NCBI RefSeq assembly: GCF_001014645.1
Contig: NZ_LASZ01000008.1
Location: 1-64,000 of the forward strand
Source of the DNA: Luteimonas sp. FCS-9
GTDB taxonomy: Bacteria; Pseudomonadota; Gammaproteobacteria; Xanthomonadales; Xanthomonadaceae
DNA length: 64,000 nucleotides
Direction of reading: 5' to 3'
Below the pieces are notes generated by a model. It was given only the letters and a program-made list of their open reading frames with translations, did no database searches and was not told where the DNA came from. Shown here piece by piece: positions 34,670-56,779 of this stretch. The stretch's first letter is position 1, and every line of letters begins with the position of its first letter. The translations under genes and the position numbers were made by a program.

Positions 34670-34715
34670 CTGGGGTTCACCCCAGGGTGCACAACGCCCG
34701 CGGGTCTCCTACCTT
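34670..34715 (+). promoter_or_regulatory. 16-bp palindrome plus -10 (T3SS-linked promoter A)
   Basis: CTGGGG-TTCA-CCCCAG (34670-34685, inside a 10-bp-arm inverted repeat 34667-34688) is followed after exactly 24 nt by TACCTT (34710-34715). The expected start near 34722 gives a 50-nt leader to the GTG at 34772. The layout matches those at 37790-37835 and 56734-56779. Confidence 0.55.
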
Positions 34716-34771
34716 CGGGAGGTCCGGCTCCGCATCCTCGACCGGGGGCCCCAGTCCGCCCGAGGTTCGTC

Positions 34772-36463
34772 GTGCCCCTAATCGACGCCATCCACAACCG
34801 CCTGGGATCCGACCTGTCCAAGCTGTCGGGCCTGCTGGGCCACAACCGTGGCGGCGGCATGCAAGGGTTCGGCCCGGCGCTGGGCAACGCGTTCTCCGGC
34901 ACCATGCGGAACCTGACCTCGAACCTGTTCCAGCAACAGTTCCCGGGCGTCCACTTCGGCAACGGGCCTGCCCCGGGCCAGGCGACCGGGGCTCCGACGG
35001 CCGACGGCCGCCCGGGCATGACGCACACGCCCGGCGGCCTCCCCGTTCCCACGCCTCCACCGCCTCCCGTCATTCCCGGGCCGCTGGGTGGGCAACCGCC
35101 CCAGAACGCATGGAACGGTGGGCACCCATCGATGCCCAACATCCCCACGCCGGGCGGCATCCCGGCAATGCCCAATGTCCCTGCCCCGGGCGGCATTCCC
35201 GCCGGCTTGGGGACCGTGCCCGGCCACCCCGGCACGCCCCGCCTCGACGGCGGGCCCCTGCCGTACCTGCCCGGACCAGGCGGGACGACACAGCCGTCGA
35301 ACCCCACCGGCGTGCTGCCCAGCCTCGGCAATGTGCTCGGTAACGCCGCGCAGGCGGTCCGCCAGTTGCTTTCCCCCGGCGCCACGCTGCCGCCGCCGCC
35401 CGGAGCCCAGCCGGTCCAGCACGGCGGCCCGCCCGTCGCGCCCCCCCAGACACTGCCGGCGCAGCTCGCCAACACCGCCACGAACGTGGCACGGACGCTC
35501 ACGAACGCCCTGCCGCAGGCACCCGCCACCTCCGTGACGCCCGGCTCTACTCCAATCGGTGCGCAGACGACCGCGCTGCCGACGGCGGTCCCGGGCCAGG
35601 GCCCGGCCACGCAAGCGTCCCTCGCGCAGCAGGCAACGGGGACGGCGCCGCAGCAGACGATCGCGCAGCAGGCGCTCCCGCAACAACCCGCCATGCCGCA
35701 GAGCGCACCGGCCACGCCATCGGCTCCTACCCCCGGAGCCGCGCCGTCATCCCAGACGCCGACAGGACCTGTGCCGGCCCAGACGCTGTCGGCCCAGCCC
35801 CAGCGGGCCGATGCGGCGTTCGCGCCACCGGGCAATCCCGCCGCCGATCGCGCCGCGCTGCCGCAACAGGCGGTGCCGGCGGCGCAGCCCGCGATCGCGA
35901 ACGTGCCTGCGGGCACGACACTGGCCACGGTTCCGGCTGCGGTGATGGCGGCCCAGACCCCGCCCGGGCCACAGGTGGCCGGCAACACCCAGATCGCAGG
36001 CAATCCGCAGGCCACCGCGCCGGCCGCCGGCGAGCGCGGCGGGCCGTCGCGCGTCGACTTGATCGCCACCGGCGTCTACACGGCCGACGGCCCCGGCTTG
36101 CGGCGCCGCAACCGGATCCGGGTCGGCGCCGCGGAGGTCGGGCAATGGATGGTCGCGCTGGCCCAGGGTCGGATGGTGCTTGCCCGGCCCCACGACGACA
36201 TGCCGGCGGAAATGGCCCGCGCGATGCAATGGCTGTTCTGGACGCTGGCCCTCGTCGCCTATGGCTGCCTGGGACTGGTACTGGTCAGCATCCTGCTGAG
36301 CATGGGCGAGCTGCCGGCCGCCCCGGCGATGCGGCAGTGGTCGGGCGAGTTCGCGCTCGCCGGCCTCGTCGCGGCCTGCGGCGCCTGGTGGCTGGCCAGA
36401 CGCCTGAATCCGCCGACACGCGATCCGGACCGCTTCCCGCCCCGGCGATCCGACCGGTCCTGA
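34772..36463 (+). CDS. proline/alanine/glutamine-rich membrane protein, unknown
   Basis: A 563-residue protein I do not recognise. A short N-terminal helical segment (LIDAIHNRLGSDLSKLSGLLG) precedes about 400 residues of low-complexity Pro/Ala/Gln/Gly with imperfect repeats (PGGIPAMPNVPAPGGIPAG). A small folded segment follows (about 430-480, LIATGVYTADGPGLRRRNRI), then two membrane helices (487-511 and 525-543). The GTG start at 34772 is chosen because GAGG lies 6 nt before it and the -10 candidate 50 nt upstream. The location and promoter type link it to the type III secretion genes; it could be a secreted or envelope-anchored component. Confidence 0.6.
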   Translation: MPLIDAIHNRLGSDLSKLSGLLGHNRGGGMQGFGPALGNAFSGTMRNLTSNLFQQQFPGVHFGNGPAPGQATGAPTADGRPGMTHTPGGLPVPTPPPPPVIPGPLGGQPPQNAWNGGHPSMPNIPTPGGIPAMPNVPAPGGIPAGLGTVPGHPGTPRLDGGPLPYLPGPGGTTQPSNPTGVLPSLGNVLGNAAQAVRQLLSPGATLPPPPGAQPVQHGGPPVAPPQTLPAQLANTATNVARTLTNALPQAPATSVTPGSTPIGAQTTALPTAVPGQGPATQASLAQQATGTAPQQTIAQQALPQQPAMPQSAPATPSAPTPGAAPSSQTPTGPVPAQTLSAQPQRADAAFAPPGNPAADRAALPQQAVPAAQPAIANVPAGTTLATVPAAVMAAQTPPGPQVAGNTQIAGNPQATAPAAGERGGPSRVDLIATGVYTADGPGLRRRNRIRVGAAEVGQWMVALAQGRMVLARPHDDMPAEMARAMQWLFWTLALVAYGCLGLVLVSILLSMGELPAAPAMRQWSGEFALAGLVAACGAWWLARRLNPPTRDPDRFPPRRSDRS

Positions 36464-36487
36464 AGCGAGCGCAACGCCGATCCGCTG

Positions 36488-37189
36488 CTAGCGCGCGATC
36501 AACCCGCCAACTTCGAGCTCGACCCGCTGCAGGTCGATGCCATTGCCCTGCAGGCCCTTGCGCACGCCTGCCGACAACGCCGCCAGCGCCTCGCGATTGC
36601 CCTGCTTCTTCATCGTCTGGTACGACAGCGCCGACACCATCGTCAGGTACGCCGTCCGCTCGGCCTGCGCCTGCTTGGCCGCGTCGCTCATGCCGACCAC
36701 CTGCGGCACCGCCGCCAGCGGCCCGATCAGCTGTCGCCTCACTGCACGCTGTCCTTCTGGCGAACGCGCCGAGTCGCGATCGTTGACGACCTCCCACGAG
36801 ATCAGCAGGTGCGCGGCGAGCACGTCGCCCAGATTGGTCGGATCGTAGCCGTAGCGCCGCAGAATGACGTCGAACTGGCGCAGCATCTCGCCCGAACCGA
36901 TCACCTTCTCGAGGTCGGCCACCTGCTGCGGATTGCGGCCGAAGGCCTGGATCGTCTCCTGCTGCACCCGCTCGCTGACCGCCGGGTCGCGCCGGAACGA
37001 CAGCGCCTCGACCGCCCGCGCGTCGACCTGGGCCGGCGCCGGCTGGGAGACCGCCTGCTGCAATGCGCGCTGGACGGCGGCATCGCCGTCGCTCGCATTT
37101 ACGACCGTCATGAACAGCAGCGCGTACATGAGGATCGCGGCGCGCATGAGGTTACGTATGTGGGCCGCTCTGTGATGCACCTCACCCAT
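36488..37189 (-). CDS. exported DUF6683-like protein, paralogue A1
   Basis: A 233-residue protein with an N-terminal hydrophobic signal (about 15-32, MRAAILMYALLFMTVV). The mature part is all-helical, with LRRYGYDPTNLGDVLAAHLL, SWEVVN and a C-terminal GIDLQRVEL. These elements recur in the gene at 38331-39113, making the two paralogues. The family resembles DUF6683; function is unknown. ATG 37189 follows GAGGAG at 8 nt. It is the second gene of the unit that starts with the small protein at 37688; a hairpin terminator between them may lower its expression. Confidence 0.65.
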   Translation of the reverse strand: MGEVHHRAAHIRNLMRAAILMYALLFMTVVNASDGDAAVQRALQQAVSQPAPAQVDARAVEALSFRRDPAVSERVQQETIQAFGRNPQQVADLEKVIGSGEMLRQFDVILRRYGYDPTNLGDVLAAHLLISWEVVNDRDSARSPEGQRAVRRQLIGPLAAVPQVVGMSDAAKQAQAERTAYLTMVSALSYQTMKKQGNREALAALSAGVRKGLQGNGIDLQRVELEVGGLIAR

Positions 37190-37346: not shown

Positions 37347-37688
37347 TTACTGCTTGCGCGCCATACCCGCGTTGGCTTCACCCAGCGACTTGATCACGGT
37401 GCTGGCGTTGTTCATGAACATCTGGAACATCTGACTCATACCGCTCAGCTCGGTGGTTTCCGACGCAGTCGGCTCCTTGCCGAGCTTGTCCGCGAAGTCC
37501 TGAAGATCCTTCGACATCTCGTCGAGCTTGTCACCCAACACCTTGGCGATCGTCATCAGGAAGCCGCCGTATTTGCTGGACAGCGCACCGCCGGCGCCGG
37601 ACCGGGCTCCGTCGGTGCCCTGAGACGCATCCAGGGTCGCACGCTGCATGTTGGCTGCATAGGTTGCAGTCAGGCTGATCTCGGTCAT
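37347..37688 (-). CDS. small needle-like protein N, paralogue of the gene in the sct operon
   Basis: A 113-residue, cysteine-free, mostly helical protein. The last 21 residues (NNAST...RKQ) match the last 21 of the protein encoded at 45902-46237 inside the sct operon, at about half identity with no gaps. That position is where needle subunits are usually encoded. The central part (LDEMSKDLQDFADKLG) suggests a coiled coil. ATG 37688 follows GGAG at 8 nt. It has its own promoter (37790-37835) and a strong terminator (37268-37306), as expected for an abundant secreted protein. It could be an extracellular filament, a needle or a needle-tip protein. Confidence 0.55.
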   Translation of the reverse strand: MTEISLTATYAANMQRATLDASQGTDGARSGAGGALSSKYGGFLMTIAKVLGDKLDEMSKDLQDFADKLGKEPTASETTELSGMSQMFQMFMNNASTVIKSLGEANAGMARKQ

Positions 37689-37789: not shown

Positions 37790-37835
37790 ATTGTCCCCCT
37801 ACGATGCAAGGTCCGTAAGCTAGGGCGTACCCTAA
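37790..37835 (-). promoter_or_regulatory. 16-bp palindrome plus -10 (T3SS-linked promoter B)
   Basis: CTAGGG-CGTA-CCCTAA (37820-37835) is followed on the minus strand after exactly 24 nt by GACAAT (37795-37790). The expected start near 37783 lies 95 nt upstream of the needle-like gene. Confidence 0.55.
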
Positions 37836-37842: not shown

Positions 37843-38244
37843 TCAGGTCGCGCCGCGCTCCGGTATTTGCTGACTCGCCCACCACTCTCGGGCCTTCTCG
37901 GGTCCATATATCTCAACGTAACGTGAGAACTCGAGCGCCTTCTGCACAGTGGGATTGAGGAGCGGCTTTTCAAGGACACCGCGGAGCCGCTCCGAATCGG
38001 TATCGGACAAGCCGAACTGGGCCTGCAGCTGCCCCACCAGGTCCTGCCATTGCTGCATCAGCTCAGGCGCAGTAGCGGCCGACGGATCCAGCTTGGCTTC
38101 ATTCAATCCCGCCTCGAACTTGGCGATCATGGTCTCCCGGTCCGCAGCGTCGATCTCCGGCTGCTCGAACAGAAATTTCTCGTACTGCTGAATCATCGCA
38201 GCCCGATCTTCAGCACTCAGCAACGATTTCTTGTGTTGGGACAT
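37843..38244 (-). CDS. small acidic helical protein, paralogue B1
   Basis: A 133-residue soluble protein of unknown function without signal peptide or cysteines. N-terminal helices contain AEDRAAMIQQYEKFL and AADRETMIAKFEAGL. Near the C-terminus the pattern E-F-x-R-x-V-E-x2-G-x-E-x-A-x2-W-x3-Q occurs (FSRYVEIYGPEKAREWWASQ). The same pattern is in the protein at 39270-39575, so the two are paralogues. Size, acidity and pairing with small secreted-type proteins would suit a secretion chaperone, but this is inference. Confidence 0.6.
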   Translation of the reverse strand: MSQHKKSLLSAEDRAAMIQQYEKFLFEQPEIDAADRETMIAKFEAGLNEAKLDPSAATAPELMQQWQDLVGQLQAQFGLSDTDSERLRGVLEKPLLNPTVQKALEFSRYVEIYGPEKAREWWASQQIPERGAT

Positions 38245-38330: not shown

Positions 38331-39113
38331 TCAATGACGCTGGGCGAAGCCGCGGTCGGTCAACACCACCGACTGGAGGTCTATGCCACTCACCCGCTTG
38401 GCAAGCATGAGTGTCCCTGTGCGCAACGCCTCCCTTTCATCGGGATCGCGCGTATTGCGCCACGCGGCGAGCGTCAGCATATTGATGATGCCGAACATCT
38501 CCGCGACCTGCTGACGCTCCGCGTCTGACGCCACAATTTCCATATCGCGCATCGCGCGCTGAAGACCCCGATAGGATCTATCGTAGGGATTCTGATACTC
38601 GCCATGGACCACTCGCCATGCGGTGATCAGATAAGCATTGAGGACCTGCACCGGATCGTTAGTGGCGTAATTCCGTGCCTCGAGCAGCTTCTCAAGGCGC
38701 GACTGCAGTACACCTTGCGCCAAGTTGCGTTCGATATCCCGGGCATTCTGCCCGATCTGACGTGCAAGCAGCCCGCGGAAATCCGGATGCTCGGAAAACA
38801 CGGCCTGCACATTGCGCGCCTCAGCAACGTCTTCGTCGAGTGCATCACCCGCGAGAAGCTGTCCCAAGGCGCGATTCAATGCTTGCGACACCTGCATAGA
38901 GGCGTTGTACGTTCGCGACTCATCTGCACTCGCGGCACGTGTATCGCTCTCTTTTCCACGATATCGATGCAGCTGGTGATGCGCATATGGCGTCACGGCG
39001 TCGATGTAATTGCCGTCCTGAGCGGAAAGGGAGGGACTGGTCGCTGCCAGCCCCAGCCCCACCACTACTGCCACCAGCGGGCCGGCGTCTGAACGTAAGG
39101 ACCCGATGTTCAT
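38331..39113 (-). CDS. exported DUF6683-like protein, paralogue A2
   Basis: A 260-residue protein with an N-terminal signal peptide (about 1-31, ending LSAQDG). Its helical mature part shares landmarks with A1: a Y...VLNAYLITAWRVVHG segment and a C-terminal GIDLQSVVL. It also has ALRTGTLMLAKR. Function is unknown. It is in the leftward series G-B2-A2-B1, with a 156-nt gap to B2. A Sec signal suggests a periplasmic or outer-membrane location, unlike a type III effector. Confidence 0.65.
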   Translation of the reverse strand: MNIGSLRSDAGPLVAVVVGLGLAATSPSLSAQDGNYIDAVTPYAHHQLHRYRGKESDTRAASADESRTYNASMQVSQALNRALGQLLAGDALDEDVAEARNVQAVFSEHPDFRGLLARQIGQNARDIERNLAQGVLQSRLEKLLEARNYATNDPVQVLNAYLITAWRVVHGEYQNPYDRSYRGLQRAMRDMEIVASDAERQQVAEMFGIINMLTLAAWRNTRDPDEREALRTGTLMLAKRVSGIDLQSVVLTDRGFAQRH

Positions 39114-39269: not shown

Positions 39270-39575
39270 TCAGGCAGCAGCGTCTTTCACGGACGCTAGC
39301 GAATCCACCATCCGCCGTGCATCGGCGCCCTCACGCTCCCCCATCTCACGCGCCTGCGCACCCAGCCAGGCATCGGCCGCTTCCCTGCCGTCGCTCTCCA
39401 CACGCCGCTCGTATTCCGGGACCAAGGCCTTGAGCTCCTGCTGGACGGCGTCGAGACGCTCGTCCATGTGTCGGATCAGGACGGTCTCGTCGTCGGCGCT
39501 GATCGCGCCCTGCTCGCGGAGTTGCGTCAGGCCATCGACCCATGCCTGACGCTGCGCCTGGGTGTCGTACTGCAT
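39270..39575 (-). CDS. small acidic helical protein, paralogue B2
   Basis: A 101-residue soluble, helical, cysteine-free protein. It shares with B1 an AD-x-ET motif (SADDETVLIRHMDERL) and the C-terminal pattern E-Y-x-R-x-V-E-x2-G-x-E-x-A-x2-W-x3-Q (YERRVESDGREAADAWLGAQ). Function is unknown. It starts three bases after the stop of the glycine-zipper gene in the same direction, so the two are co-expressed, compatible with a chaperone-substrate pair. Confidence 0.6.
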   Translation of the reverse strand: MQYDTQAQRQAWVDGLTQLREQGAISADDETVLIRHMDERLDAVQQELKALVPEYERRVESDGREAADAWLGAQAREMGEREGADARRMVDSLASVKDAAA

Positions 39576-39578: not shown

Positions 39579-39803
39579 TCAGTTGCCGACGCTGAAGTTG
39601 AAGCTGAAGCCGCCCTTGAAGCCATCGCTGACGGCATCCTGCGCCGACTGAGGCAGGCCCAACGACTGGAACAGGCTGTCGAACGCGCTGTTGAACGCCT
39701 GGCCGAACAGATCGCCGATGAAGTTGCCGAGCAGGCCGCCCAGCGGACCACCGAGCGCACTACCGATGACGGAACCGATAACGTCGGAAATGGCACCTGA
39801 CAT
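39579..39803 (-). CDS. 74-residue perfect glycine-zipper protein
   Basis: A 74-residue protein without Cys, Trp or Tyr. Glycines occur at residues 10, 14, 18, 22, 26, 30 and 34, i.e. six consecutive GxxxG units with Ile, Leu, Val or Phe between. Aromatic spacing then continues (Phe37, Phe41, Phe45), and the C-terminus is DGFKGGFSFNF. Such a zipper favours helix packing in membranes or pores, and the composition also recalls harpins. There is no Sec signal. ATG 39803 follows AAAGGAG at 7 nt. First gene of its unit, with tandem regulatory palindromes upstream (39927-39958). Confidence 0.65.
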   Translation of the reverse strand: MSGAISDVIGSVIGSALGGPLGGLLGNFIGDLFGQAFNSAFDSLFQSLGLPQSAQDAVSDGFKGGFSFNFSVGN

Positions 39804-39926
39804 GATGAAACTCCTTTGATGGTGAAGATTGCGAAGTACAGCGGAATCGTGCGCGGGAGGGCCGGACTTGCCGATGGCCGATCGCGACTGCAGGCGCAGT
39901 CTGCGCCTGCGCCAGGCGCCACGCAT

Positions 39927-39958
39927 CTGGGTCGTACCCCATCTAGGGCCCGCCCTAG
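39927..39958. promoter_or_regulatory. two abutting 16-bp palindromes (T3SS-linked site C)
   Basis: CTGGGT-CGTA-CCCCAT (39927-39942) and the perfect CTAGGG-CCCG-CCCTAG (39943-39958) lie end to end upstream of the glycine-zipper gene. The hexamer 24 nt downstream on the minus strand (AGACTG) is a poor -10, so the exact promoter is uncertain here. Confidence 0.5.
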
Positions 39959-40753: not shown

Positions 40754-41482
40754 TCAGCCGTGGAAGTGCGGGTCGATCGTCAGCGTGCCCAGGTTGCGCT
40801 CGGCGAAGCGGCGGGCCAGTTGGGGGCCGGCCTCCCGGATCGCATCGAAGCTCTCGCGCGAGCGGCTGTCGGCACGCAGCACCCAGCCGTCGGCACTCTT
40901 GCTCAGCAGCAGATCGGTACCCGGCAACGTGGCATCGGCCATGCGCAACAGCACCTGACCGTCGCCCCCCGGATCGCGCGTATCGTGCACCGCCATCTGC
41001 CGCACGTGCTTTTCCATCATGTCGAACAGCTGACCTGCGTTGGACGCCGCGGCCGCAGGTGCCGCAGCAGGCGCGCCGTCGCGCAACGCCATTTGCGCCT
41101 GCAGCATCGCGGCGGATTCCATGCCCTGCGCATGCTGGGACCCCGGGCCGCTCTCGTGCTGCTGGCGGAACGTACGCGCATCGACCACGTCCAGGACCGA
41201 TTGCCGGGTCTTGAGCGCGTCCTGATGGCTCGCGAGATCGGCCATCGCGCCCTCTTCGAGGTCGCCCTCGCCCTGCAACGCGTCGTCGAGCATCGCATCT
41301 CCCGGCAGCTCCTGCAGGCCCGGCATGTCGCCACGCGCCTGCTGCATCATCGACCGGAACTGGTCGACGCGCTCGCGCGGTGGCGGCTCCTTGCCGTCGG
41401 CCTTGGCCTGGCGATCGACCTGGCGATTGCGCGCGGACTGGTCCGGCGGCCGGGATGCGGAATCGTTGCCTTGCACGCTCAT
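40754..41482 (-). CDS. sctP: type III secretion needle-length/switch protein SctP (probable)
   Basis: A 242-residue protein at the end of the leftward operon, directly after sctO, the standard place for sctP. The first 140 residues are polar and probably disordered, with a Gln/Ala-rich ruler-like stretch. The C-terminal about 90 residues form a FliK/T3S4-like domain (QVLLRMADATLPGTDLLLS, GWVLRADSRSRESFDAI, ERNLGTLTID). Known SctP proteins measure needle length and switch substrate specificity via SctU. Sequence conservation is always low, so the call leans on position. Confidence 0.65.
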   Translation of the reverse strand: MSVQGNDSASRPPDQSARNRQVDRQAKADGKEPPPRERVDQFRSMMQQARGDMPGLQELPGDAMLDDALQGEGDLEEGAMADLASHQDALKTRQSVLDVVDARTFRQQHESGPGSQHAQGMESAAMLQAQMALRDGAPAAAPAAAASNAGQLFDMMEKHVRQMAVHDTRDPGGDGQVLLRMADATLPGTDLLLSKSADGWVLRADSRSRESFDAIREAGPQLARRFAERNLGTLTIDPHFHG

Positions 41483-41503
41483 CGTCGTTTCCTCCTGCCT
41501 TCG

Positions 41504-41986
41504 CTACTGGCGCGCCAGATAGCGCGCCTGCATCAGATCCTCGGCGGTCGCCTCTTCCTGGCGCGCCTGCAAGCCGCGTTGTTCTCCGCGCCACACGTCG
41601 CGGCGCTTTTCCAGCGCGTCCTGGCGGGCCTTGGCGCGGAAGAACGCATCGCGCGCCTCCTGCAGCGCCTGCTCGGCCTGGCGCACGGCGTCCTGGGCCT
41701 TTGCCAGGCGGGCCTGCGCGCCGGCGATCTGCTCGCCGATCAGCTCGATGTAGAGCTCGCGCTGGGCCAGCGCGGCCGGCCACGGGACGCCGGCTGGCGG
41801 GGCATCGAGCAGGCGCGCACGGTGCAGCTGGCGCGAGGTCTTCAGCTCGACGATCTCGCCCTCGATACGCTGGCAGGCCTCGTGGCACTGCTGCAGCGCG
41901 CGCTGCCGGTCCAGCACCACGCGGCGCGCGGCCTCGGTGCGATGCTCGCGCAACTGGAGCAGCGTCTGCAGCGGATAGCGCTTCAT
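41504..41986 (-). CDS. sctO: type III secretion stalk protein SctO
   Basis: A 160-residue, highly charged protein predicted to be one long coiled coil (helices about 5-60 and 75-150), beginning MKRYPLQTLLQLREHR. This fits the SctO/FliJ stalk that links the ATPase hexamer to the SctV export gate. The ATG overlaps the sctN stop by 4 nt. It lies between sctN and sctP as in Ysc-type loci. Confidence 0.78.
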   Translation of the reverse strand: MKRYPLQTLLQLREHRTEAARRVVLDRQRALQQCHEACQRIEGEIVELKTSRQLHRARLLDAPPAGVPWPAALAQRELYIELIGEQIAGAQARLAKAQDAVRQAEQALQEARDAFFRAKARQDALEKRRDVWRGEQRGLQARQEEATAEDLMQARYLARQ

Positions 41987-43341
41987 GCGAACAGCTTCCG
42001 AAGCGCGGCCGACGAGGTGTCGAACGGCACCAGCTCGTGCTCGGACTGCTGGAGCAGCGCGCGGATCGCGGCGATCTTCTCGATCGCGAGATCCGCGTCC
42101 GGATCGGTGCCGCGCTTGTACTCGCCCAGCTGCACCAGCAGTTCGATGTCCTGGTGCTTGGCCAACAGCTTGCGCAGCTGGCCGGCCGCGCGCAGGTGCG
42201 GTTGCTCGACGACCCGCGGCATGGTGCGGCTGAGGCTGGTGAGCACGTCGATCGCGGGATAGTGGTACGCGGCGGCGAGCTTGCGCGAGAGCACGATGTG
42301 GCCGTCGAGGATCGACCGCACCTCCTCGACGATCGGGTCGCCGCCGTCCTCGTCCTCGGCCAGCACGGTGTAGAACGCGGTGATCGAACCCTTGTCGTTG
42401 TTGCCCGCGCGTTCGAACAGCTTCGGCAGCTCGCTGAACACCGACGGCGGGAAGCCGCGCCGCGCCGGCGGTTCGCCGACCGCCAGGCCGACATCGCGCA
42501 ACGCACGCGCGAAGCGCGTGACCGAATCGACCAGCAGCAGCACGCGCTTGCCCTGGTCGCGGAAGTACTCGGCGACCGCCGTGCCGACCCAGGCCGCGCG
42601 ACTGCGCTCGAGCGCGGGACGGTCGGACGTGGCGACGACGATCACCGATTTGGCCAGGCCGGCCGCGCCGAGGTTGTCGTTGATGAATTCGTTGACCTCG
42701 CGGCCGCGCTCGCCGACCAGCACGACGACGTTGACGTCCGCGTCGCCACCGCGCGCGAGCATGCCCAGCAGCGTGCTCTTGCCGCCGCCGGCGACGGCGA
42801 AGATGCCGATGCGCTGCCCTTCGCCGGCGGTCATCACGGTGTCGATCGCGCGCACGCCGGTCGAGAACGGGCGCTCGATCAGCGCGCGCCGCAGGGGGTT
42901 GGGCGAGGCGGCGTAGATCGGCGCGTCGACGGTCGGCCCGATCGGCCCGAGCTCGTCGATCGGCGTGCCGTGCGCGTCGAGGATGCGTCCCAGCAGCCCG
43001 TCGCCGACCGGGACCGACGCCTGCCGGCCGGACGCGTAGACCTCGGTCGTCGCGGCGATGCCGTCTAGCGGACCCAGCGGGGTGAGCACGGTGTGCTGGC
43101 GCGACACGCCGACGACCTCGGCCGCGAGCTCGAAGCGCGGATCGCCGGGATTGCGCAGGTGGCACAGCTCGCCGATCGCCGCGCGCAGGCCGGTCGCCTT
43201 GATCAGCGTCCCATAGGCCTCGCTGACCCGGCCGACCCGCTCGATCGCCTGGACCTTGCCCAGCGCGTGCAGCAACGGATCGGGCGCGGCCGCCGGCGCG
43301 CCGACGGCATCCAGTGCCGACAGGGAGAGATCGGCGGTCAT
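41983..43341 (-). CDS. sctN: type III secretion ATPase SctN
   Basis: A 452-residue FliI/SctN ATPase that powers substrate unfolding at the export gate. The Walker A reads AVAGGGKST (182-190), where homologues usually have AGSGVGKST. Walker B is RVLLLVDSVTRFARALRD. Family signature PPSVFSELPKLFERAG and the C-terminal YPAIDVLTSLSR follow. The extra N-terminal about 20 residues are Ala/Pro-rich. It overlaps sctL and sctO by 4 nt each. Confidence 0.97.
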   Translation of the reverse strand: MTADLSLSALDAVGAPAAAPDPLLHALGKVQAIERVGRVSEAYGTLIKATGLRAAIGELCHLRNPGDPRFELAAEVVGVSRQHTVLTPLGPLDGIAATTEVYASGRQASVPVGDGLLGRILDAHGTPIDELGPIGPTVDAPIYAASPNPLRRALIERPFSTGVRAIDTVMTAGEGQRIGIFAVAGGGKSTLLGMLARGGDADVNVVVLVGERGREVNEFINDNLGAAGLAKSVIVVATSDRPALERSRAAWVGTAVAEYFRDQGKRVLLLVDSVTRFARALRDVGLAVGEPPARRGFPPSVFSELPKLFERAGNNDKGSITAFYTVLAEDEDGGDPIVEEVRSILDGHIVLSRKLAAAYHYPAIDVLTSLSRTMPRVVEQPHLRAAGQLRKLLAKHQDIELLVQLGEYKRGTDPDADLAIEKIAAIRALLQQSEHELVPFDTSSAALRKLFA

Positions 43342-44655: not shown

Positions 44656-44657
44656 GA

Positions 44658-47542: not shown

Positions 47543-47629
47543 GACTGGCCTCGCTTGGCGTGCGCTGCGCCCGGCGCCGCGGATATCCGCGCGGCCCGGC
47601 GGCACTCGCCCCGGATGGATACGACAAGG

Positions 47630-49687: not shown

Positions 49688-49942
49688 GCCAGTCTCCCGC
49701 GTGCGCGGCGTGCGGACGCGCAGCGGGGCGCGGAGACCGCGCAAACCCGCACTCCGCGCAAACTGGACTTCATTCGGCGCATCTGCCCCTGACCTCGTGC
49801 GTCACTTTTTGCCCCTCTACGATAGTCTACCCATGTTATGGCCGGGTAAACCCGATGTTGCAAGGATGTGCCAGCGACGAGCGGAGACGATGTGAAGAAT
49901 CGCGGCGGAACCGGCGCTGCACACGGCCCGCGTCACGGCGAC
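49688..49942. promoter_or_regulatory. upstream region of the leftward sct operon
   Basis: A 255-nt region between sctV and the FliO-like gene's 3' end. It is AT-richer around 49805-49860. On the minus strand, TAACAT (49838-49833) and TAGACT (49829-49824) are possible -10 boxes. A CGGGT-AA-ACCCG inverted repeat lies at 49843-49854. None of these has the 24-nt palindrome-to-hexamer spacing seen at the accessory promoters. Confidence 0.4.
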
Positions 49943-50383
49943 TTAACGATCCGCGGCGATATTGGTGCGCGCGCCCGGGTCCGTGGTCTGGCCCTCGGTG
50001 ACGGGGGACAGGTCATCGACGTCGAGATCCGTGACGAACGTCACCGATTGCGCGCCGACGCCGATCGCGAAGGCCCGTCCGGCGCGCGAGCGCACCACCA
50101 CCAGCCGTTCGCGGGGGCCGACCGGCAGGATCTGCACCACCGTCAACGGCGTCTCGCCTCCCGACAAGCCATAGCGGCGGCGCAGCAGCCGCAGCAGGAA
50201 CAGCAGGCCAGCGATGATGAAGACCAGCGGCAGCACGATGGCCAGCATTTCGCCGACGAACGAGTCGTTCGCGACCGCGGGCGGCGTGGCCGCGGCCCAG
50301 CCCGGCAACGGCGAGGCGAGGCCCGCCAGACCGAGCGGCCGGCGCAGCGCGGAAAAACGGGACAGGAGGGCGGCGCGGGTCAT
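49943..50383 (-). CDS. FliO-like protein in a non-flagellar type III locus
   Basis: A 146-residue protein with an N-terminal signal-like segment, one membrane helix (about 43-67, MLAIVLPLVFIIAGLLFLLRLL) and the FliO hallmark PLTVVQILPVGPRERLVVVRS followed by FAIGVGAQSVTFVTDL. FliO helps assemble the FliP-FliR core of flagellar export and is normally absent from injectisome loci. Here it faces leftward upstream of sctV and divergent from the two-component/sctQRST operon. No other flagellar gene is near. Confidence 0.8.
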   Translation of the reverse strand: MTRAALLSRFSALRRPLGLAGLASPLPGWAAATPPAVANDSFVGEMLAIVLPLVFIIAGLLFLLRLLRRRYGLSGGETPLTVVQILPVGPRERLVVVRSRAGRAFAIGVGAQSVTFVTDLDVDDLSPVTEGQTTDPGARTNIAADR

Positions 50384-50455
50384 GGCATCTCGGCGGACGG
50401 GCACCGGAGCGGTGCGGGCGTACGTTAGCAGCGCGGCCCGGGATGCCGCTGCCGC

Positions 50456-51559
50456 ATGACGCGCACGTCCGGACCCTCCCGCGCCACGCGCGCCCGGCCC
50501 TCCGGCGACGACGCCCGTTCGGACGCGCTGGAAGCCGTGCTGGCCGCGGTGCCGTTCGCGTGCGCGGCCTTCGACCGCCGCAGCGGCGCGCTGGTCGCCG
50601 CCAATCCCCGCTTCTCGGCCGACCTGGGCGCCCTGCCCGGCCACGGTCAGCGCGACGCGCTGCTCGCCAGCCTCTACGGCGACCTGACCGGCGAGGCCCG
50701 CGGCGAGGAGGTGCGCGCGCCGCACAGCGGCCGCTGGTATGCGCTGCACTGGCGCGACCTCGACTGCGGCGACCGGGCGCTGGCGCTGCTGACCGCGGTC
50801 GACATCAGCGAGCGCATCGAGACGCTGGATTCGCACAAGTCGCAGCAGGAAAAGCTGCTGTTCACCTCGCGGATGATGTCGGTCGGCGAGATGGCCGCCA
50901 CGCTCGCCCACGAGCTCAACCAGCCGCTGGCGGCGATCGTGAACTACCTCAACGGCAGCCTGCGGCTGGTCGGTCAGGCCGGCGGGCCGGTGCAGGTCGA
51001 GCGCGCGCTGCAGGCCGCCCGCACCCAGGCCGAGCACGCCAGCGCGGTGATCGCGCGGGTGCGCGAGTTCGTGCGTGCGCGCGAGCCGCGCCGCGACGCC
51101 CAGGAACTGCCGCTGATCGTCGACACCGTGCTCGAACTGCTGCGGCTGGAGGCCGAGCGCCAGCAGTTGCGCATCGAACTGGCGCTGCCCGCGCCGTTGC
51201 CGCCGGTCTACGCCGACCGCGTGATGGTCGAGCAGGTGCTGCTGAACCTGGTCAAGAACGCGATCGAGGCGATGCGCGAGGTGCCCGCGGCGCAGCGCGG
51301 GCTGCGGATCGAGGCCCGGGTCAACCTCGACGGCGAGATCGAGGTCCGGGTCTGCGACCGGGGCCCCGGCCTGAGCCCGGCGCAGAGCGAGCAGCTGTTC
51401 TCGCCGTTCTACACCACCAAGTCCGACGGCCTGGGCATCGGACTGGCGATCTGCCGGTCGATCATCGAATACCACGAAGGGCGGCTATTCTTCGAGGCCA
51501 GGGATGGCGGCGGCAGCGTGTTCGGTTTCACGCTGCCCACGCCCGACAGGAGGATCTAG
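50456..51559 (+). CDS. FixL-like cytosolic sensor histidine kinase
   Basis: A 367-residue kinase without membrane segments. A PAS-like sensor domain (about 25-120, FACAAFDRRSGALVAANPRF, ending TAVDISERI) precedes the H-box MAATLAHELNQPLAAI with the phosphorylated His. The N-box is NLVKNAIEAM, followed by DRGPGLS and GLGIGLAIC. The HELNQPL type is typical of FixL/TtrS-like kinases. First gene of the rightward operon with its response regulator and sctQRST, so it probably senses a signal for type III expression. Confidence 0.9.
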   Translation: MTRTSGPSRATRARPSGDDARSDALEAVLAAVPFACAAFDRRSGALVAANPRFSADLGALPGHGQRDALLASLYGDLTGEARGEEVRAPHSGRWYALHWRDLDCGDRALALLTAVDISERIETLDSHKSQQEKLLFTSRMMSVGEMAATLAHELNQPLAAIVNYLNGSLRLVGQAGGPVQVERALQAARTQAEHASAVIARVREFVRAREPRRDAQELPLIVDTVLELLRLEAERQQLRIELALPAPLPPVYADRVMVEQVLLNLVKNAIEAMREVPAAQRGLRIEARVNLDGEIEVRVCDRGPGLSPAQSEQLFSPFYTTKSDGLGIGLAICRSIIEYHEGRLFFEARDGGGSVFGFTLPTPDRRI

Positions 51560-51561
51560 CG

Positions 51562-52161
51562 ATGCCCGGCACGCCTTGCGTCTATCTGGTCGACGACAAC
51601 GACGGTTTCCGCGATTCCACCGCGTGGCTGCTGGAGACCGCGAACTTCGAGGTCCGCGCCTTCGCGTCCGGCGCCGCCTTCCTGACGGTGTTCGACAGCA
51701 CCCGCCACGGCGACGACGAGTGCCTGGTCTCGGACATCCGGATGCCCGAGATGAGCGGGTTGCAACTGCAGGACGAACTGCTGCGACGGGGGTCGTCGCT
51801 GCCGCTGATCTTCGTCACCGCCCACGGCGACGTGCCGCTGGCGGTCGAGGCGATGCGCAAGGGCGCGTCGAACTTCCTCGAAAAGCCTTTCAGCGACGAG
51901 GCGCTGGTCGACGCGATCCGCCATGCGCTGCGCCGCGAGCGCCGCCAGTCCGGCACGCCGCAGGGCGAGGCGCTGGCGCGGCTGAGCCCGCGCGAGCGCC
52001 AGGTGCTCGATCTGGTCGTGGCCAGCAAGCCCAACAAGATCATCGCCGACATCCTCGGCATCAGCATCAAGACCGTGGAGCTGCATCGCGCGAACATGAT
52101 GAACAAACTCGGCGTACGCTCGTTGCCCGAACTGATGAAGGTGGCGCTTGGACATGGCTGA
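51562..52161 (+). CDS. FixJ-like response regulator (LuxR-type HTH)
   Basis: A 199-residue regulator with a receiver domain (VYLVDDNDGFRDS, phospho-Asp in CLVSDIRMPEMSG, FVTAHGDVPLAVEAM, LEKPFSDEAL) and a C-terminal LuxR/NarL HTH (LSPRERQVLDLVVASKPNKIIADILGI...). AGGAGG lies inside the end of the kinase gene, 9 nt before the ATG. Its end overlaps sctQ by 8 nt, coupling it to the export genes. It is the nearest candidate for the protein binding the CTAGGG-N4-CCCTAG palindromes. Confidence 0.9.
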   Translation: MPGTPCVYLVDDNDGFRDSTAWLLETANFEVRAFASGAAFLTVFDSTRHGDDECLVSDIRMPEMSGLQLQDELLRRGSSLPLIFVTAHGDVPLAVEAMRKGASNFLEKPFSDEALVDAIRHALRRERRQSGTPQGEALARLSPRERQVLDLVVASKPNKIIADILGISIKTVELHRANMMNKLGVRSLPELMKVALGHG

Positions 52162-53197
52162 TTCCGGCGCGACCGTGCCGTCCCCCGCGACGTCCCCGCT
52201 GCGCGAACGCATCCCCCGGCTCGGCGCCGCGCAAGCGCAGGCGCTGCGCGCGCTGCACCGCCGCCGGCGGCAGTGGTCTTCGCCCGCGGGCACGCTGACC
52301 CTGCGCGAGGGACGTCCCGGCGATCCGGCCAGCGTGTTCGAACTCGATGCCGACGGCAGCCGGCTGGGCCTGCGCCTGCGCACCCCGCCGCCGACCGACG
52401 ACGGCGACACGCTGCGCTGGCAGGACCATCGTGGCCGCGCCCGCGTGCTCGCCTGGAGCCTGGCGAACGAGGCGGCGCTGGTGCGGCTGAGCGAGGCGCT
52501 GGGCACCTCGCTGCTGCCGCTGCCCGATCCGCCGCCGGCCCCGACCGCGGACGTGGTGTGGGTGGACTTCGAACTGCACGGCGCCGACGGACCGGCGCTG
52601 GCCGGCAGCCTGCGCGCAGGCGTCGACTGGCTGACCACCGCGCTCGGCCGCGACGCGGCGACCGATGCCGCGCCCGCCGACGCCGGCCACTGGCGCCAGC
52701 TGCCTGCCGTCCTGTCGCTCGCGATCGCCGCGCCGCCGCTGACGATCGCCGACCTGCGCGACCTGCGCCCGGGCGACGTCGTGGTCGTCGGCTCGACCCG
52801 CCTGCCGGCGCTGCACGCCGATGCCGTCGGCCTGCGCTGGCCGGTCCGCGCCGGCAGCGAGGGCTGGCGGATCGACGGCCCCGCGAGCCCCCAACCCCGA
52901 TTCCAGGAGACTGCCCCGATGAGCGAGACCGACGCCCCCGAGACCCCTGCCCCCGAGGCGCCCGCGCCCGTCGAGGACCCGGCCAGCCGCCTGCCGGTGG
53001 AGGTCGCGTTCGAGTTGGGCAAGGTCGAGCTGCGCCTGGGCGACGTCGCCGGCCTGCAGCCGGGCTACGTGTTCGCGCTGCCTGCCCAGCTCGAGGGCGC
53101 GAACGTGACGATCCGCGCCAACGGCCGCGTCGCCGGCCAGGGCGAACTGGTCGCGGTCGGGGACACGCTCGGCGTGCGCCTGCTCTCCTGGAGCTGA
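52154..53197 (+). CDS. sctQ: type III secretion C-ring/pod protein SctQ
   Basis: A 347-residue protein; the C-terminal 75 residues are a typical FliN/SctQ SpoA domain (LPVEVAFELGKVELRLGDVAGLQPGYVFAL... NGRVAGQGELVAVGDTLGVRLLS). The N-terminal two-thirds are the diverged SpoA1-containing region. It forms the cytosolic sorting platform with SctK and SctL. ATG 52154 overlaps the response-regulator stop; a TTG two codons earlier is possible. An internal start with its own ribosome site lies at 52919. Confidence 0.88.
   Translation: MADSGATVPSPATSPLRERIPRLGAAQAQALRALHRRRRQWSSPAGTLTLREGRPGDPASVFELDADGSRLGLRLRTPPPTDDGDTLRWQDHRGRARVLAWSLANEAALVRLSEALGTSLLPLPDPPPAPTADVVWVDFELHGADGPALAGSLRAGVDWLTTALGRDAATDAAPADAGHWRQLPAVLSLAIAAPPLTIADLRDLRPGDVVVVGSTRLPALHADAVGLRWPVRAGSEGWRIDGPASPQPRFQETAPMSETDAPETPAPEAPAPVEDPASRLPVEVAFELGKVELRLGDVAGLQPGYVFALPAQLEGANVTIRANGRVAGQGELVAVGDTLGVRLLSWS
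52905..52921 (+). promoter_or_regulatory. internal ribosome-binding site and start for a short SctQ form
   Basis: AGGAGA (52905-52910), eight bases, then ATG (52919-52921) in the sctQ frame. It would give a 92-residue C-terminal fragment containing just an acidic Pro/Glu linker and the SpoA domain. Short forms made this way are known for YscQ, SsaQ and Spa33. Confidence 0.7.
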
Positions 53198-53200
53198 GGC

Positions 53201-54190
53201 ATGGATTTCAGCACGTTCTCGCCCGCCCTCGTCCTGGTGACGGTGGTCAGCCTGGCGCTGGCGCCGTTCGTGGCGGTGATGGTGACCTCCTTCACCAAGA
53301 TCGTCGTGGTGCTGAGCCTGCTGCGCAACGCGCTCGGGCTGCAGCAGGTGCCGCCGAACGTGGTCATCAACGGCCTGGCGATCGTGCTGTCGATCTACGT
53401 GATGTACCCGGTGATCCTCGACGTCAACGCCGCCGTCGAGGCGCGGCTCGAGGGCCGGCCGCCGCCGGCCTCGGTGCAGCGCCAGATCGACGCGCGCGCG
53501 CAGCAGCAGGCCGTGCGCGAGGGTCGCGCGATCGAGGTCCGGCCCGCGGCGGCGTCCGCCGCCCCGCAGGCCGACGCGCCGCCGACCAGCCCGGCCGCGG
53601 CCGACGGCCTGGCCGCCGAGGCGCAGGCCCGCGGCGAGCCCGGCCCGGCGCCCGACCCGATGTTCAGCGCGGTGCGCGGCGGCTCGAGCAACGACCCGCG
53701 CGAGGACCGCGAGCCCGCACTGCCGGCGCTGGCCGAGGAGGTCACGCAGCCGGCCGGTCCCGCCGCCCCGCCGGCGTCGGGCGGCGCGTTCGACACCAAC
53801 CGGCTGCTGACGATGGTCGACGCCGGCAAGGAGCCGCTGCGCACGTTCCTGATCCAGCACTCGAGCGACGCGGAACGCGCGTTCTTCCTGCGCAGCGTGC
53901 AGCGCATGCTCCCGGCCGAGCGCCGCGGCGACCTGACGCCGGACGACTTCATCGTCGTCGTGCCGGCGTTCACCGTCAGCGAGCTCACGGCCGCATTCCA
54001 GATCGGCTTCCTGATCTTCCTGCCGTTCCTGATCATCGACCTGGTCGTGGCCAACATCCTGCTCGCGCTGGGCATGATGATGCTCTCGCCCACGACCGTG
54101 TCGCTGCCGTTCAAGCTGCTGCTGTTCGTGCTGATCGACGGCTGGGCCAAGCTGGTGCACGGCCTCGTGCTCACCTACGGAACGACCTGA
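53201..54190 (+). CDS. sctR: type III secretion export apparatus SctR with long insert
   Basis: A 329-residue FliP/SctR homologue; the family is usually about 215-230 residues. The membrane helices 1-2 (1-75, PFVAVMVTSFTKIVVVLSLLRNALG) and the C-terminal half (from about 200: EPLRTFLIQHSSDAERAFF, FQIGFLIFLPFLIIDLVVANILLALGM) are intact. Between them residues about 85-196 are a Pro/Ala/Gln-rich disordered insert in what should be the periplasmic loop. Starts 3 nt after sctQ; its stop overlaps sctS. Confidence 0.95.
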   Translation: MDFSTFSPALVLVTVVSLALAPFVAVMVTSFTKIVVVLSLLRNALGLQQVPPNVVINGLAIVLSIYVMYPVILDVNAAVEARLEGRPPPASVQRQIDARAQQQAVREGRAIEVRPAAASAAPQADAPPTSPAAADGLAAEAQARGEPGPAPDPMFSAVRGGSSNDPREDREPALPALAEEVTQPAGPAAPPASGGAFDTNRLLTMVDAGKEPLRTFLIQHSSDAERAFFLRSVQRMLPAERRGDLTPDDFIVVVPAFTVSELTAAFQIGFLIFLPFLIIDLVVANILLALGMMMLSPTTVSLPFKLLLFVLIDGWAKLVHGLVLTYGTT

Positions 54191-54456
54191 TGGGCGACGT
54201 CCTGGAGTTCACCAAGGAAGCGCTGTGGCTGGTGTTGCTGCTGTCCGGGCCGCCGGTCGCGGCGGCGGCGCTGATCGGCCTGGTGGTCGCGTTCCTGCAG
54301 GCGGCCACGCAGCTGCAGGAGCAGACGTTCCCCTACGCGCTGAAGTTCCTGACCGTGGTCATCATGCTGTTCGTGACCGGCTCGCTGATCGGCGGCACGC
54401 TGTACGTGTTCGCCGACCGCATCTTCCTCGACTTCCCCGGCCTCGTCCGGCGCTGA
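54190..54456 (+). CDS. sctS: type III secretion export apparatus SctS
   Basis: An 88-residue FliQ/SctS homologue with two membrane helices and the conserved LLLSGPPVAAAALIGLVVAFLQAATQLQEQT segment followed by PYALKFLTVVIML. With SctR and SctT it forms the helical export-gate core. ATG overlaps the sctR stop by one base, and its own stop overlaps sctT by one base. Confidence 0.96.
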   Translation: MGDVLEFTKEALWLVLLLSGPPVAAAALIGLVVAFLQAATQLQEQTFPYALKFLTVVIMLFVTGSLIGGTLYVFADRIFLDFPGLVRR

Positions 54457-55241
54457 TGCTCGACCTCGCGCAGAACCCGATGCTGGCGCTCGCGCTGACG
54501 CTGCCGCGCGTGGCCGGGGCGTTCCTGATGCTGCCGCTGCTGACCACCGAGACGGTGCCGGCGATGGTGCGCAACAGCTTCATGGTCAGCCTGGCGATCG
54601 TCGCGATCCCGATCGCGCTGGCCGGCGCGCCGCCGATCGAGGCGGCCGGCACGGCGCACTGGTCGGCGATCGTGCTCAAGGAGACCTTCATCGGCATCTC
54701 GATCGGCTTCTGCTACGGCATCGTGTTCTGGGCGATCAGTTCGGCCGGCGTGATCATCGACACCCAGGTCGGCATGTCGATGGCGCAGATCTTCGACCCG
54801 ATCCAGGGCCACCAGACCTCGCTGCACGGCGAGTTCCTGTCCCAGCTGTCGTCATGGCTGTTCATGGCCAGCGGCGCGTTCCTGGTGTTCCTGGACCTGC
54901 TGATGACCAGCTATACGGTGTGGCCGGTCATGAGTTTCTTCCCCGACATCCGGCTCAGCGGCATGGCCCTGTTCGTCGGGCAGTTCAGTTACCTGATGAC
55001 GGCGATGCTGCTGCTCGCCGCGCCGGCGATGGTGATCCTGCTGGTCATCGACCTGTCGTTCGGCCTGGTCAACCGCTACGCACCCCAGCTCAACGTGTTC
55101 GCGCTGACGATGCCGATCAAGGCCTGGCTGGCGACGGCGATCATCCTGCTGATGCTCGGCGTGTTCGTCGAGATCGTGATGCGCCGCCTGGTCGACAACA
55201 GCGGGCTGGTCAACGCGCTCAAAAGCGCGTTCGGGGGATAG
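54456..55241 (+). CDS. sctT: type III secretion export apparatus SctT
   Basis: A 261-residue FliR/SctT protein with about six membrane helices. Conserved: LPRVAGAFLMLPLL near the N-terminus, LKETFIGISIGFCYGIVFWAI, GVIIDTQVGMSMAQIFDP, and VNRYAPQLNVFALTMPIKAWLA. Last gene of the rightward operon; sctU follows on the opposite strand after a REP pair. Confidence 0.96.
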   Translation: MLDLAQNPMLALALTLPRVAGAFLMLPLLTTETVPAMVRNSFMVSLAIVAIPIALAGAPPIEAAGTAHWSAIVLKETFIGISIGFCYGIVFWAISSAGVIIDTQVGMSMAQIFDPIQGHQTSLHGEFLSQLSSWLFMASGAFLVFLDLLMTSYTVWPVMSFFPDIRLSGMALFVGQFSYLMTAMLLLAAPAMVILLVIDLSFGLVNRYAPQLNVFALTMPIKAWLATAIILLMLGVFVEIVMRRLVDNSGLVNALKSAFGG

Positions 55242-55286
55242 CCGGGCAGTCCGCTGCCGGGCGCGTCGATCGGAGGCCTACATCTC

Positions 55287-55352
55287 GCAGGAGCGCGCTG
55301 GCGCGCGATGGGCCGCCCCGGGAACGTTCATCGCGCGCAAGCGCGCTCCTAC
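55287..55352. repeat. REP-type inverted pair, third copy
   Basis: GCAGGAGCGCGCTGGCGCGC... (55287-55309) and the opposite 23-bp unit ending GCGCGCTCCTAC (55330-55352, reverse complement begins GTAGGAGCGCGCTTGCGC). It fills the gap between the convergent sctT and sctU genes and may stabilise or terminate both transcripts. Confidence 0.82.
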
Positions 55353-55366
55353 GGGGGCGTGCGCGG

Positions 55367-56572
55367 TCAGCGCAGCGGGTCGCGCGGGTCCTCGAGGCGC
55401 TCGACGATCGACGGATCGTCGACGAGCGGCGGCGGGGGCGCCGGCTCGGCGGCCATGCCGACCTCCTCGAGCATGTCCTCGGGCGGCACGAACTCGGGTG
55501 GTTCGGGCCGCGCCTCGCCCGAGCGCATGCCCTCGGCCCAGTACAGCACCTGGGCGACCGCCTCGAAGAACTCGTTGCCGATGTAGTCGTCGATCTCCAC
55601 GCGCGCGTTGAGCCCGCGCGCCAGCGGCACGTTCTGCAGGATCGGCACGCCCGACTCCTCGGCCACGCGCCGGATCTCCTCGGCCATGTGGCCCTCGCCC
55701 TTGGCCACGACCAGCGGCAGGTCGTCGGTGCCCTGCTCGTACTGCAGCGCGACGGCGATGTGGGTGGGGTTGGTCACGACGACGCTCGATCCGCGGACGG
55801 CATTGAGCATGTTCTGCTGCGACCACTCCTGGTGCAACTGCTTGCGCCGCTGCTTGACGTAGGGATCGCCCTCGTTCTCCTTGACCTCCTGCTTGATGTC
55901 GCGCCGGCTCATGCGCAGCTTCTTGATGTAGGAGAACTTCTGGTACGAGGCGTCGAGCGCGGACACGAAGAAGAACACGAAGATCGTCCAGATGCCGATC
56001 CACTTGAGCGCGTGCCAGATCGCGCTGCCGATCGAGGCGGGCTGGGCGAACGGCAGGTTCAGCAGGCTGGGAATCATCCCCCACAGCACGAAGCCGCCGA
56101 TGGCGATCAGCCCGGCGCTCTTGAACAGCGACTTGACCAGCTCGACGAGGTTGTCCATCGAGAACATCTTCTTGATGCCGCTGACCGGGTTCATCTTCGA
56201 CAGGTCCGGCGTGACCTTCTTCATCGACGCCACCGGCCCGACCTGCAGGAACTCCACCAGCAGCCCCAGCAGCACGGCCATCAGCAGCAGCGGCAGCGTC
56301 ATCGACAGGAACACCTGCGCGGCCAGCGGCACGATCGTGCGCAGCGCGACGTCGAACGGCTGGTTCATCACCTGCAGCGCCTGTTCGAACAGGCCGCTCA
56401 CGCGCCGGAACATGAAGCCCATCAGCAGCCACCCGCCGACCAGCCAGCCCATCACCAGCACGGTACTGGTCAGCTCGCGGCTCTTGCTGACGTTGCCTTC
56501 CTTGCGGGCGTCCTTGAGCTTCTTGCTGGTCGGTTTTTCGGTCTTGTCGGCGCCTTCGTTCTGCTCTGCCAT
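55367..56572 (-). CDS. sctU: type III secretion specificity switch protein SctU
   Basis: A 401-residue FlhB/SctU homologue: N-terminal KTEKPTSKKLKDARKEGNVSKSREL, four membrane helices and the autocleavage site NPTH (268-271) in VVVTNPTHIAVAL. A C-terminal tail of about 50 residues is acidic and proline-rich (PEPPEFVPPEDML), longer than in most homologues. The start at 56572 fits the MAEQNEGADKTEKPT N-terminus. It is inverted relative to sctQRST, an unusual break of the R-S-T-U order. Confidence 0.96.
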   Translation of the reverse strand: MAEQNEGADKTEKPTSKKLKDARKEGNVSKSRELTSTVLVMGWLVGGWLLMGFMFRRVSGLFEQALQVMNQPFDVALRTIVPLAAQVFLSMTLPLLLMAVLLGLLVEFLQVGPVASMKKVTPDLSKMNPVSGIKKMFSMDNLVELVKSLFKSAGLIAIGGFVLWGMIPSLLNLPFAQPASIGSAIWHALKWIGIWTIFVFFFVSALDASYQKFSYIKKLRMSRRDIKQEVKENEGDPYVKQRRKQLHQEWSQQNMLNAVRGSSVVVTNPTHIAVALQYEQGTDDLPLVVAKGEGHMAEEIRRVAEESGVPILQNVPLARGLNARVEIDDYIGNEFFEAVAQVLYWAEGMRSGEARPEPPEFVPPEDMLEEVGMAAEPAPPPPLVDDPSIVERLEDPRDPLR

Positions 56573-56733
56573 GCGGACCTGCACCGGCGCACCACGGGGA
56601 TCCGGAGGCTAGCATGGGCGCGTGGCGGTGCCGGCGAGGGCACCCGTGCTGTGATGCGTCAGCGCCCTGTTCCCCTCGACGGCCAACCTGCATTCAGCTT
56701 CGAGGCCGGCGCTGACGGACCTGCGCGGCCCCC

Positions 56734-56779
56734 CTAGGGCCAGCCCGAGATAGCCCGTCCATGGCAGCAGCGTTACAGT
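56734..56779 (+). promoter_or_regulatory. 16-bp palindrome plus -10 (T3SS-linked promoter E)
   Basis: CTAGGG-CCAG-CCCGAG (56734-56749) is followed after exactly 24 nt by TACAGT (56774-56779). The expected start near 56786 lies 46 nt upstream of the gene at 56832. The site may also serve the divergent sctU, but no -10 is evident at the same spacing on that side. Confidence 0.55.

Follow-up and report, generated by a model that had tools for sequence, protein, structure and literature searches.

The PIP box of HrpX, the hrp box of HrpL and the tts box of TtsI are promoter signs that identify effectors of type III secretion systems (T3SSs) genome-wide. The palindrome considered here, CTAGGG-N4-CCC(T/C/G)AG, differs from these signs in sequence and in the family of its candidate regulator; it lies in and around a T3SS gene cluster in a 64,000-nucleotide (nt) stretch of the Luteimonas sp. 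FCS-9 genome (contig NZ_LASZ01000008.1, positions 1 to 64,000; hereafter the window, always at its full length). Very likely the box is a conserved operator that keeps a nearly fixed register and serves a T3SS substrate regulon, and a FixJ/StyR-like response regulator encoded in the cluster at position 51562 is its likely, candidate reader; for the combined claim, that the box is the operator of such a regulon in Luteimonas, Lysobacter and their relatives and is read by the adjacent 51562 regulator, the evidence from sequence makes a good case.

The closest functional parallel is the SsrA/SsrB system of Salmonella pathogenicity island 2 (SPI-2), in which the response regulator SsrB controls both the T3SS and effectors encoded genome-wide, acting at a palindrome whose centre is 4 base pairs (bp) long (PMC2837388; here and below, papers are cited for the excerpts available of each). 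As in that system, the regulator gene of the present locus lies inside the T3SS locus, and sites occur in the locus as well as elsewhere. The two differ in that the SsrB site is a degenerate 7-4-7 palindrome with loose spacing to the start, whereas the present box is a tight 6-4-6 palindrome positioned 23-24 nt from the -10 hexamer; furthermore, SsrB sites are found in the promoters of the SPI-2 machine, whereas none of the present boxes was seen before sctV, sctQ or the kinase gene. The FixL/FixJ system of rhizobia shares the combination of receiver and GerE domains, and one reported FixJ site, TAAGTAATTTCCCTTA (PMC4999443), is 16 bp long and can be parsed, in the present analysis, as a 6-4-6 dyad with a CCC arm; yet its arms differ, the FixJ consensus is described as unsettled, and its targets are fixK and nifA, with no T3SS among them. 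The StyS/StyR and TodS/TodT systems offer the nearest solved structure, a 6-N4-6 palindrome and activation from about -40, but they differ in their ATAAAC arms, their recognition residues and their catabolic targets.

The T3SSs of Lysobacter and Luteimonas are annotated yet little studied in the literature found. A T3SS gene list is given in PMC9410377, and the T3SSs of these genera are also treated in PMC4687298; the cluster of L. antibioticus, described in a 2026 genome paper, includes a kinase and a response-regulator transcription factor, with four predicted effectors nearby (PMC13163355), and in L. capsici the signals GLY and 3HBA downregulate the T3SS (PMC8416617). The available excerpts of these four papers do not describe the box, and none of the matches listed in a literature search whose coverage leaves out most subscription journals concerned the box or its regulon.

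The box in the window

The boxes of the T3SS region, the -10-like hexamers downstream of them, and the genes that they face or whose homologues follow a box in relatives are as follows.

34670..34685, plus strand: box CTGGGG-TTCA-CCCCAG, exact match, 24 nt from TACCTT
34710..34715, plus strand: -10-like hexamer TACCTT
34772..36463, plus strand: Pro-rich protein, 563 amino acids, starting with GTG and without a Pfam match; target of the 34670 box
37820..37835, minus strand: box TTAGGG-TACG-CCCTAG as read on the minus strand, one mismatch
37790..37795, minus strand: -10-like hexamer GACAAT, 24 nt downstream of the 37820 box
37347..37688, minus strand: small protein g37347, target of the 37820 box
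37843..38244, minus strand: small protein g37843, with homologues preceded by a box in several relatives
39943..39958, minus strand: distal box of a tandem pair, CTAGGG-CGGG-CCCTAG, exact match
39927..39942, minus strand: proximal box of the tandem pair, ATGGGG-TACG-ACCCAG (ATGGGGTACGACCCAG), two mismatches
39897..39902, minus strand: -10-like hexamer AGACTG, 24 nt past the proximal box
39579..39803, minus strand: small Gly-rich protein g39579, first gene past the tandem boxes; weak Pfam matches below cut-off, homologues in relatives
56734..56749, plus strand: box CTAGGG-CCAG-CCCGAG, one mismatch, with an orthologous box in 34 of 34 loci
56774..56779, plus strand: -10 hexamer TACAGT
56832..57149, plus strand: g56832, 105 amino acids, target of the 56734 box; no Pfam match

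The initial annotation had pointed out palindromes at 34670, 37820 and 56734, each separated by exactly 24 nt from a -10-like hexamer; on re-reading, the places, orientation and spacing of all three were borne out, as were the hexamers themselves (TACCTT at 34710, GACAAT at 37795-37790 on the minus strand, and TACAGT at 56774). CTAG is indeed as rare as had been remarked, with 17 occurrences in the window versus 60.5 expected. The related remark that CTAGGG is confined to these loci and to 39943 stands for 37820, 39943 and 56734, the only places in the window where it occurs, but not for the 34670 site, which reads CTGGGG. Matches to CTRGGGN4CCCYAG with at most one mismatch number five in the window against 0.44 expected, a count that none of 100 shuffles reached. 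The match at 7943 is unrelated and the remaining four make up the T3SS-region sites; between 34000 and 58500 no match of this quality was found beyond the four.

The 39943 site, for which no explanation had been offered, belongs to a tandem pair: it forms the far half, and the near half (39942-39927) stands exactly 24 nt before AGACTG. In the orthologous promoter of genome G072, ahead of a g39579-like gene (L181), AGACTG recurs at the same 24-nt spacing, and adjacent box pairs are present in six of 15 contexts (G000, G018, G020, G055, G097 and G123). Directly upstream of the 34670 promoter, a terminator-like GGGTCTCC followed by a T-run was noticed by eye (34554-34600).

Conservation, register and co-occurrence in relatives

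The scan of the whole genome and of related genomes that the initial annotation had proposed finds the box recurring in relatives with the same geometry; its register, its conservation and its co-occurrence with the T3SS are, like the box itself, read directly from the sequences. Thirteen T3SS contexts of relatives were compared, a fourteenth (G131) having been dropped since no T3SS gene matched, and every one of the 13 contains at least one box with no more than one mismatch; judged by eye, these boxes often precede homologues of g37347, g37843, the Pro-rich protein or g56832. Of the 45 loci with sctV described below, 34 extend from sctU as far as the next conserved gene, and all 34 have a box at the g56832 promoter with TAnnnT 23 or 24 nt downstream; up to two mismatches were allowed, the site in each locus was the best by mismatches plus a bonus for an in-register hexamer, and many of the 34 loci come from close species.

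The register was determined in 1.6 Mb of T3SS-locus and related DNA, with non-redundant sites read in both directions. At 75 exact sites, TAnnnT was found 16 times at 23 nt, 15 times at 24 nt and once at 25 nt, against a mean of 0.40 and a maximum of 2 at other offsets; at the 134 sites with at most one mismatch, the corresponding counts were 25, 35 and 2, against a mean of 0.71 elsewhere. In the controls, seven permuted-arm palindromes plus the pattern reversed, TAnnnT turned up at most once at 23-25 nt, and the exact-match controls are weak because they comprise only 0-4 exact sites (9-57 with one mismatch). Since the sample includes T3SS loci picked for relatedness, these register figures express conservation and should not be read as trials independent of each other. 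Forty-four exact sites outside the T3SS loci were fetched from eight relatives (a contig-edge site, G097:C9:126, was excluded), and 15 of them have TAnnnT at 23-25 nt in one direction or the other, compared with a mean of 1.1 and a range of 0-5 for other three-offset windows; seven of the 16 sites in regulator-free genomes were fetched, and none of the seven has it.

The 52 sites that can be oriented by a hexamer at 23 or 24 nt yield CTAGGG-N4-CCC(C/G/T)AG, in which the upstream arm is nearly fixed (A at position 3 in 46 of 52) and its mirror position downstream varies freely (C 23, G 16, T 13); this set was chosen by at most one mismatch plus TAnnnT, and the column counts are conditional on that choice. 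No TTGACA-like hexamer stands 17 nt before the -10 in these sites. A second TAnnnT peak in the 134-site set (10 sites at 28 nt) is due to a second site class with a conserved register of its own: of 12 in-cluster sites that were read, 11 are followed by TA(G/C)AGT at 28 nt and face an sctF-like gene (L086, L087, L089, L094, L095, L098, L099, L104, L111, L115 and L116), and the twelfth (L093) faces an sctD-like gene. The window itself has no site with up to two mismatches ahead of the gene taken as sctF.

Co-occurrence was tallied by hand over 149 genomes of the family, 34 of which contain an exact box. Eighteen genomes with a close regulator (76-100% identity) account for 116 exact boxes, versus 22 matches to the reversed control; the remaining 131 genomes hold 16 exact boxes, at most one each, with reversed controls at 0-5 per genome. 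The 18 regulator-bearing genomes are the same 18 that carry a close SctV (73-100% identity), other SctV-like matches being 37-55% identical. Three genomes with an extra, partial SctV match of 49-55% (G017, G092 and G145) have 0, 1 and 0 boxes, and G120, where the regulator match is 51%, has neither a close SctV nor a box. With position, spacing and targets conserved, and with box number tracking the T3SS and the regulator, the regulon proposed in the initial annotation is strongly supported.

The candidate reader and competing explanations

40754..56572: T3SS core cluster, with sctP, O, N, L, K, J, I, F, D, V and U on the minus strand and sctQ, R, S and T on the plus strand
50456..51559, plus strand: histidine kinase (Pfam HisKA, HATPase_c)
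51562..52161, plus strand: FixJ/StyR-like response regulator, candidate reader of the box (Response_reg, GerE)

Within the cluster, SctN, V, R, S, T, U, J, D, O, Q and, through FliH, L have Pfam matches above cut-off; SctI and SctP match below cut-off, and SctK and SctF, without a match, are named from position. The 51562 protein has the receiver-then-GerE architecture of FixJ/NarL-type regulators (PF00072, E 2.5e-25; PF00196, E 1.6e-18; both above cut-off). Sixty-five loci were gathered with the regulator alignment, of which 45 have sctV; the order sctV-kinase-regulator-sctQ is kept in all 45, so that the kinase is always adjacent. An SctN match of 76-85% is present in 13 of the 14 contexts from relatives; among the 45 T3SS loci, 40 have SctN, and some loci stop short of the gene. 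The closest named relatives belong to Luteimonas, with a 96% identical regulator in Luteimonas sp. RC10 (L073). In the other 20 loci (L117-L136), the sct queries taken from the window matched nothing at E 1e-3, so that these loci provide no outgroup regulon; the SctN query does find an ATPase at 34% in L118. A FliO homologue (49943-50383, minus strand; PF04347, E 9e-10) is encoded upstream of sctV and recurs in those 45 of the 65 loci that have the T3SS; a FliO associated with the T3SS has been reported before in Luteimonas (PMC12403147).

The solved structures nearest to the 51562 protein are 1yio (E 3e-43, "response regulatory protein") and FixJ 5xso (E 2.6e-41). We take 1yio to be StyR, which is consistent with its residue numbers. 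StyR-type sites have the form ATAAACN4GTTTAT, and DNA contact is thought to be made via Lys175, Val176 and His179 (PMC5874301); in the alignment, these positions are Lys, Val and His in StyR, Glu, Val and Ala in FixJ, and Glu, Leu and Ala in the 51562 protein. StyR activates from a site at about -40 (PMC2442086). The present box is a 6-N4-6 dyad and, if the hexamer is the -10, would be centred near -44, within the -40 to -45 range of FixJ/StyR-type operators; its geometry and arms fit this family, and StyR and FixJ sites are of similar geometry. The CT-N12-AG form and the position of the box also resemble those of a lux box; LuxR quorum sensing was rejected, as PF03472 (Autoind_bind) has no match in the FCS-9 genome. 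Covariation between recognition helix and box was of no use as proof of the reader, because the helix hardly varies among the 45 T3SS loci and offers nothing to correlate with the box; in L112 and L113 the left arm of the box is altered and the helix is unchanged. The 51562 regulator, already named in the initial annotation as the nearest candidate, remains the best one by its constant location, its co-occurrence with the box and the binding geometry of its family, although the link is circumstantial.

Several observations weigh against the 51562 regulator as reader of a regulon-wide operator. Regulator and T3SS coincide exactly across the genomes, which ties the box to the system and not to one protein. 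In genus g91, which belongs to another family, each of six genomes has one exact box; all three sites read have a hexamer at 24 nt (TAGGTT in G237 and G270, TAGCTT in G253), and the best regulator matches in this genus are just 34-44% identical. A box in g91 without a regulator orthologue suggests that another protein may read, or may once have read, such a site. Strict TAnnnT at 23-25 nt accompanies only four of the eight exact sites of the FCS-9 genome outside the window, and only the 15 of 44 already given for relatives. In the window and in relatives' loci, no box of up to one mismatch was seen upstream of sctV, sctQ or the kinase gene; before sctF-like genes of relatives, a box stands at the 28-nt spacing described above. 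The FixJ consensus is itself described as unsettled (PMC4999443). Finally, two sites elsewhere in the FCS-9 genome face genes of another kind: one (L022) a TonB receptor gene whose product has a TonB plug, the other (L018) an ArsR-like gene (PF01022, E 1.9e-12). The initial annotation had held that many matches before unrelated genes would speak against a dedicated regulon; this was partly tested, with several outside sites preceding secreted-looking proteins on the one hand, and the TonB receptor, the ArsR-like gene and the lone g91 site before an M4 peptidase on the other. That peptidase, with an FTP propeptide, lies beyond the box at both g91 sites scanned (L190 and L191, of L190, L191 and L192). 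At L018 (G000:C1:213286), a perfect CTGGGGCGCGCCCCAG dyad directly upstream of the ArsR-like gene is possibly the operator of that gene.

The foremost alternative accepts the box as a real operator of the T3SS regulon and places its reader elsewhere in the genome, with the kinase and regulator acting upstream or otherwise. The g91 genomes, with their lone box of the same geometry and no regulator orthologue, lend it substance, and other FixJ-like proteins are common; it is nevertheless unlikely, as the 51562 protein is the sole member of a DNA-binding family above cut-off among the scanned cluster and accessory proteins, box number follows the regulator over the 149 genomes, and the binding geometry matches FixJ/StyR. 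It is quite improbable that the box acts as a repressor or silencer site and keeps T3SS substrate genes off in non-inducing conditions: promoter-near palindromes are often repressor sites, and StyR represses from some of its sites (PMC2442086), but the box ends just upstream of -35 without overlapping the -10, and the lack of a TTGACA-like consensus 17 nt before the -10 is what activator-dependent promoters would show. A reading of the palindromes as products of chance, or as RNA or terminator elements in GC-rich DNA, is extremely unlikely in spite of their GC-rich arms and the single exact matches in 16 of 131 regulator-free genomes, given the shuffle, permuted-arm and reversed controls (shuffles and permuted arms were the grounds for rejecting a chance palindrome) and the orthologous placement in 34 of 34 loci.

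Genes behind the box and the proposed regulon

Further genes of the accessory region and beside g56832 are the following.

36488..37189, minus strand: DUF6683 protein (Pfam E 1e-17), next gene downstream of g37347
38331..39113, minus strand: g38331, with a 29% relation to the DUF6683 protein
39270..39575, minus strand: small protein g39270, with homologues in relatives
57219..57896, plus strand: g57207, conserved, after g56832; no Pfam match

Boxes stand before homologues of g37347 in relatives, and g37347 shows a distant similarity of 31% to the 45902 gene, the one taken as sctF; one query matches both, with E 1.1e-4 for the second. For the Pro-rich protein, partly similar stretches are present in relatives. 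Elsewhere in the FCS-9 genome, box genes encode a polyproline protein (L019), a protein that is 58% identical over 249 amino acids to one encoded behind a box in G072 (L020; L178 in G072), a LysM-like protein just below cut-off (L021), a polyproline/Mbeg1-like protein below cut-off with kin in L142, L151, L157 and L158 (L023), a low-complexity protein (L024) and, related to L156, a protein with DUF1521 (L025, E 1e-33); a one-mismatch site (L189) precedes a repeat protein that is 48% identical to L138 and L180. Site orientation was picked by eye, and the list is illustrative and not a count. Long N-terminal polyproline runs were also seen in box genes of relatives (L151, L153, L158, L159, L160, L164 and L166), and at L025 and at L156, its relative in another genus, a second, weaker box apparently stands beside the first, by eye. 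In the NopE proteins, which are secreted through a T3SS, DUF1521 is the domain responsible for autocleavage (PMC6506597). Several of the products encoded behind boxes outside the locus look secreted, and we infer that these products are T3SS substrates.

The identity of the binder, its phosphorylation, the activation of its targets and the secretion of their products are inferred from these patterns, and would combine as follows. The adjacent kinase (50456-51559) would phosphorylate the 51562 regulator, which would then bind the box as a dimer centred near -44, beside the -35 position, and bring in RNA polymerase at promoters with a usable -10 and no evident -35; the genes switched on in this way would encode needle-like and accessory proteins inside the cluster and effector-like proteins elsewhere. 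On balance, we lean towards the view that the in-cluster two-component system of Luteimonas, Lysobacter and their kin drives a genome-wide substrate regulon through this single box in near-fixed register.

A box in near-fixed register provides a cheap genome-wide list of candidate substrates and names a probable regulator, so that the conditions and targets of the machine become testable. If the proposed regulon is real, the box alone would expose an undescribed effector repertoire (polyproline, LysM, DUF1521, repeat and protease-like proteins) of environmental and biocontrol bacteria.

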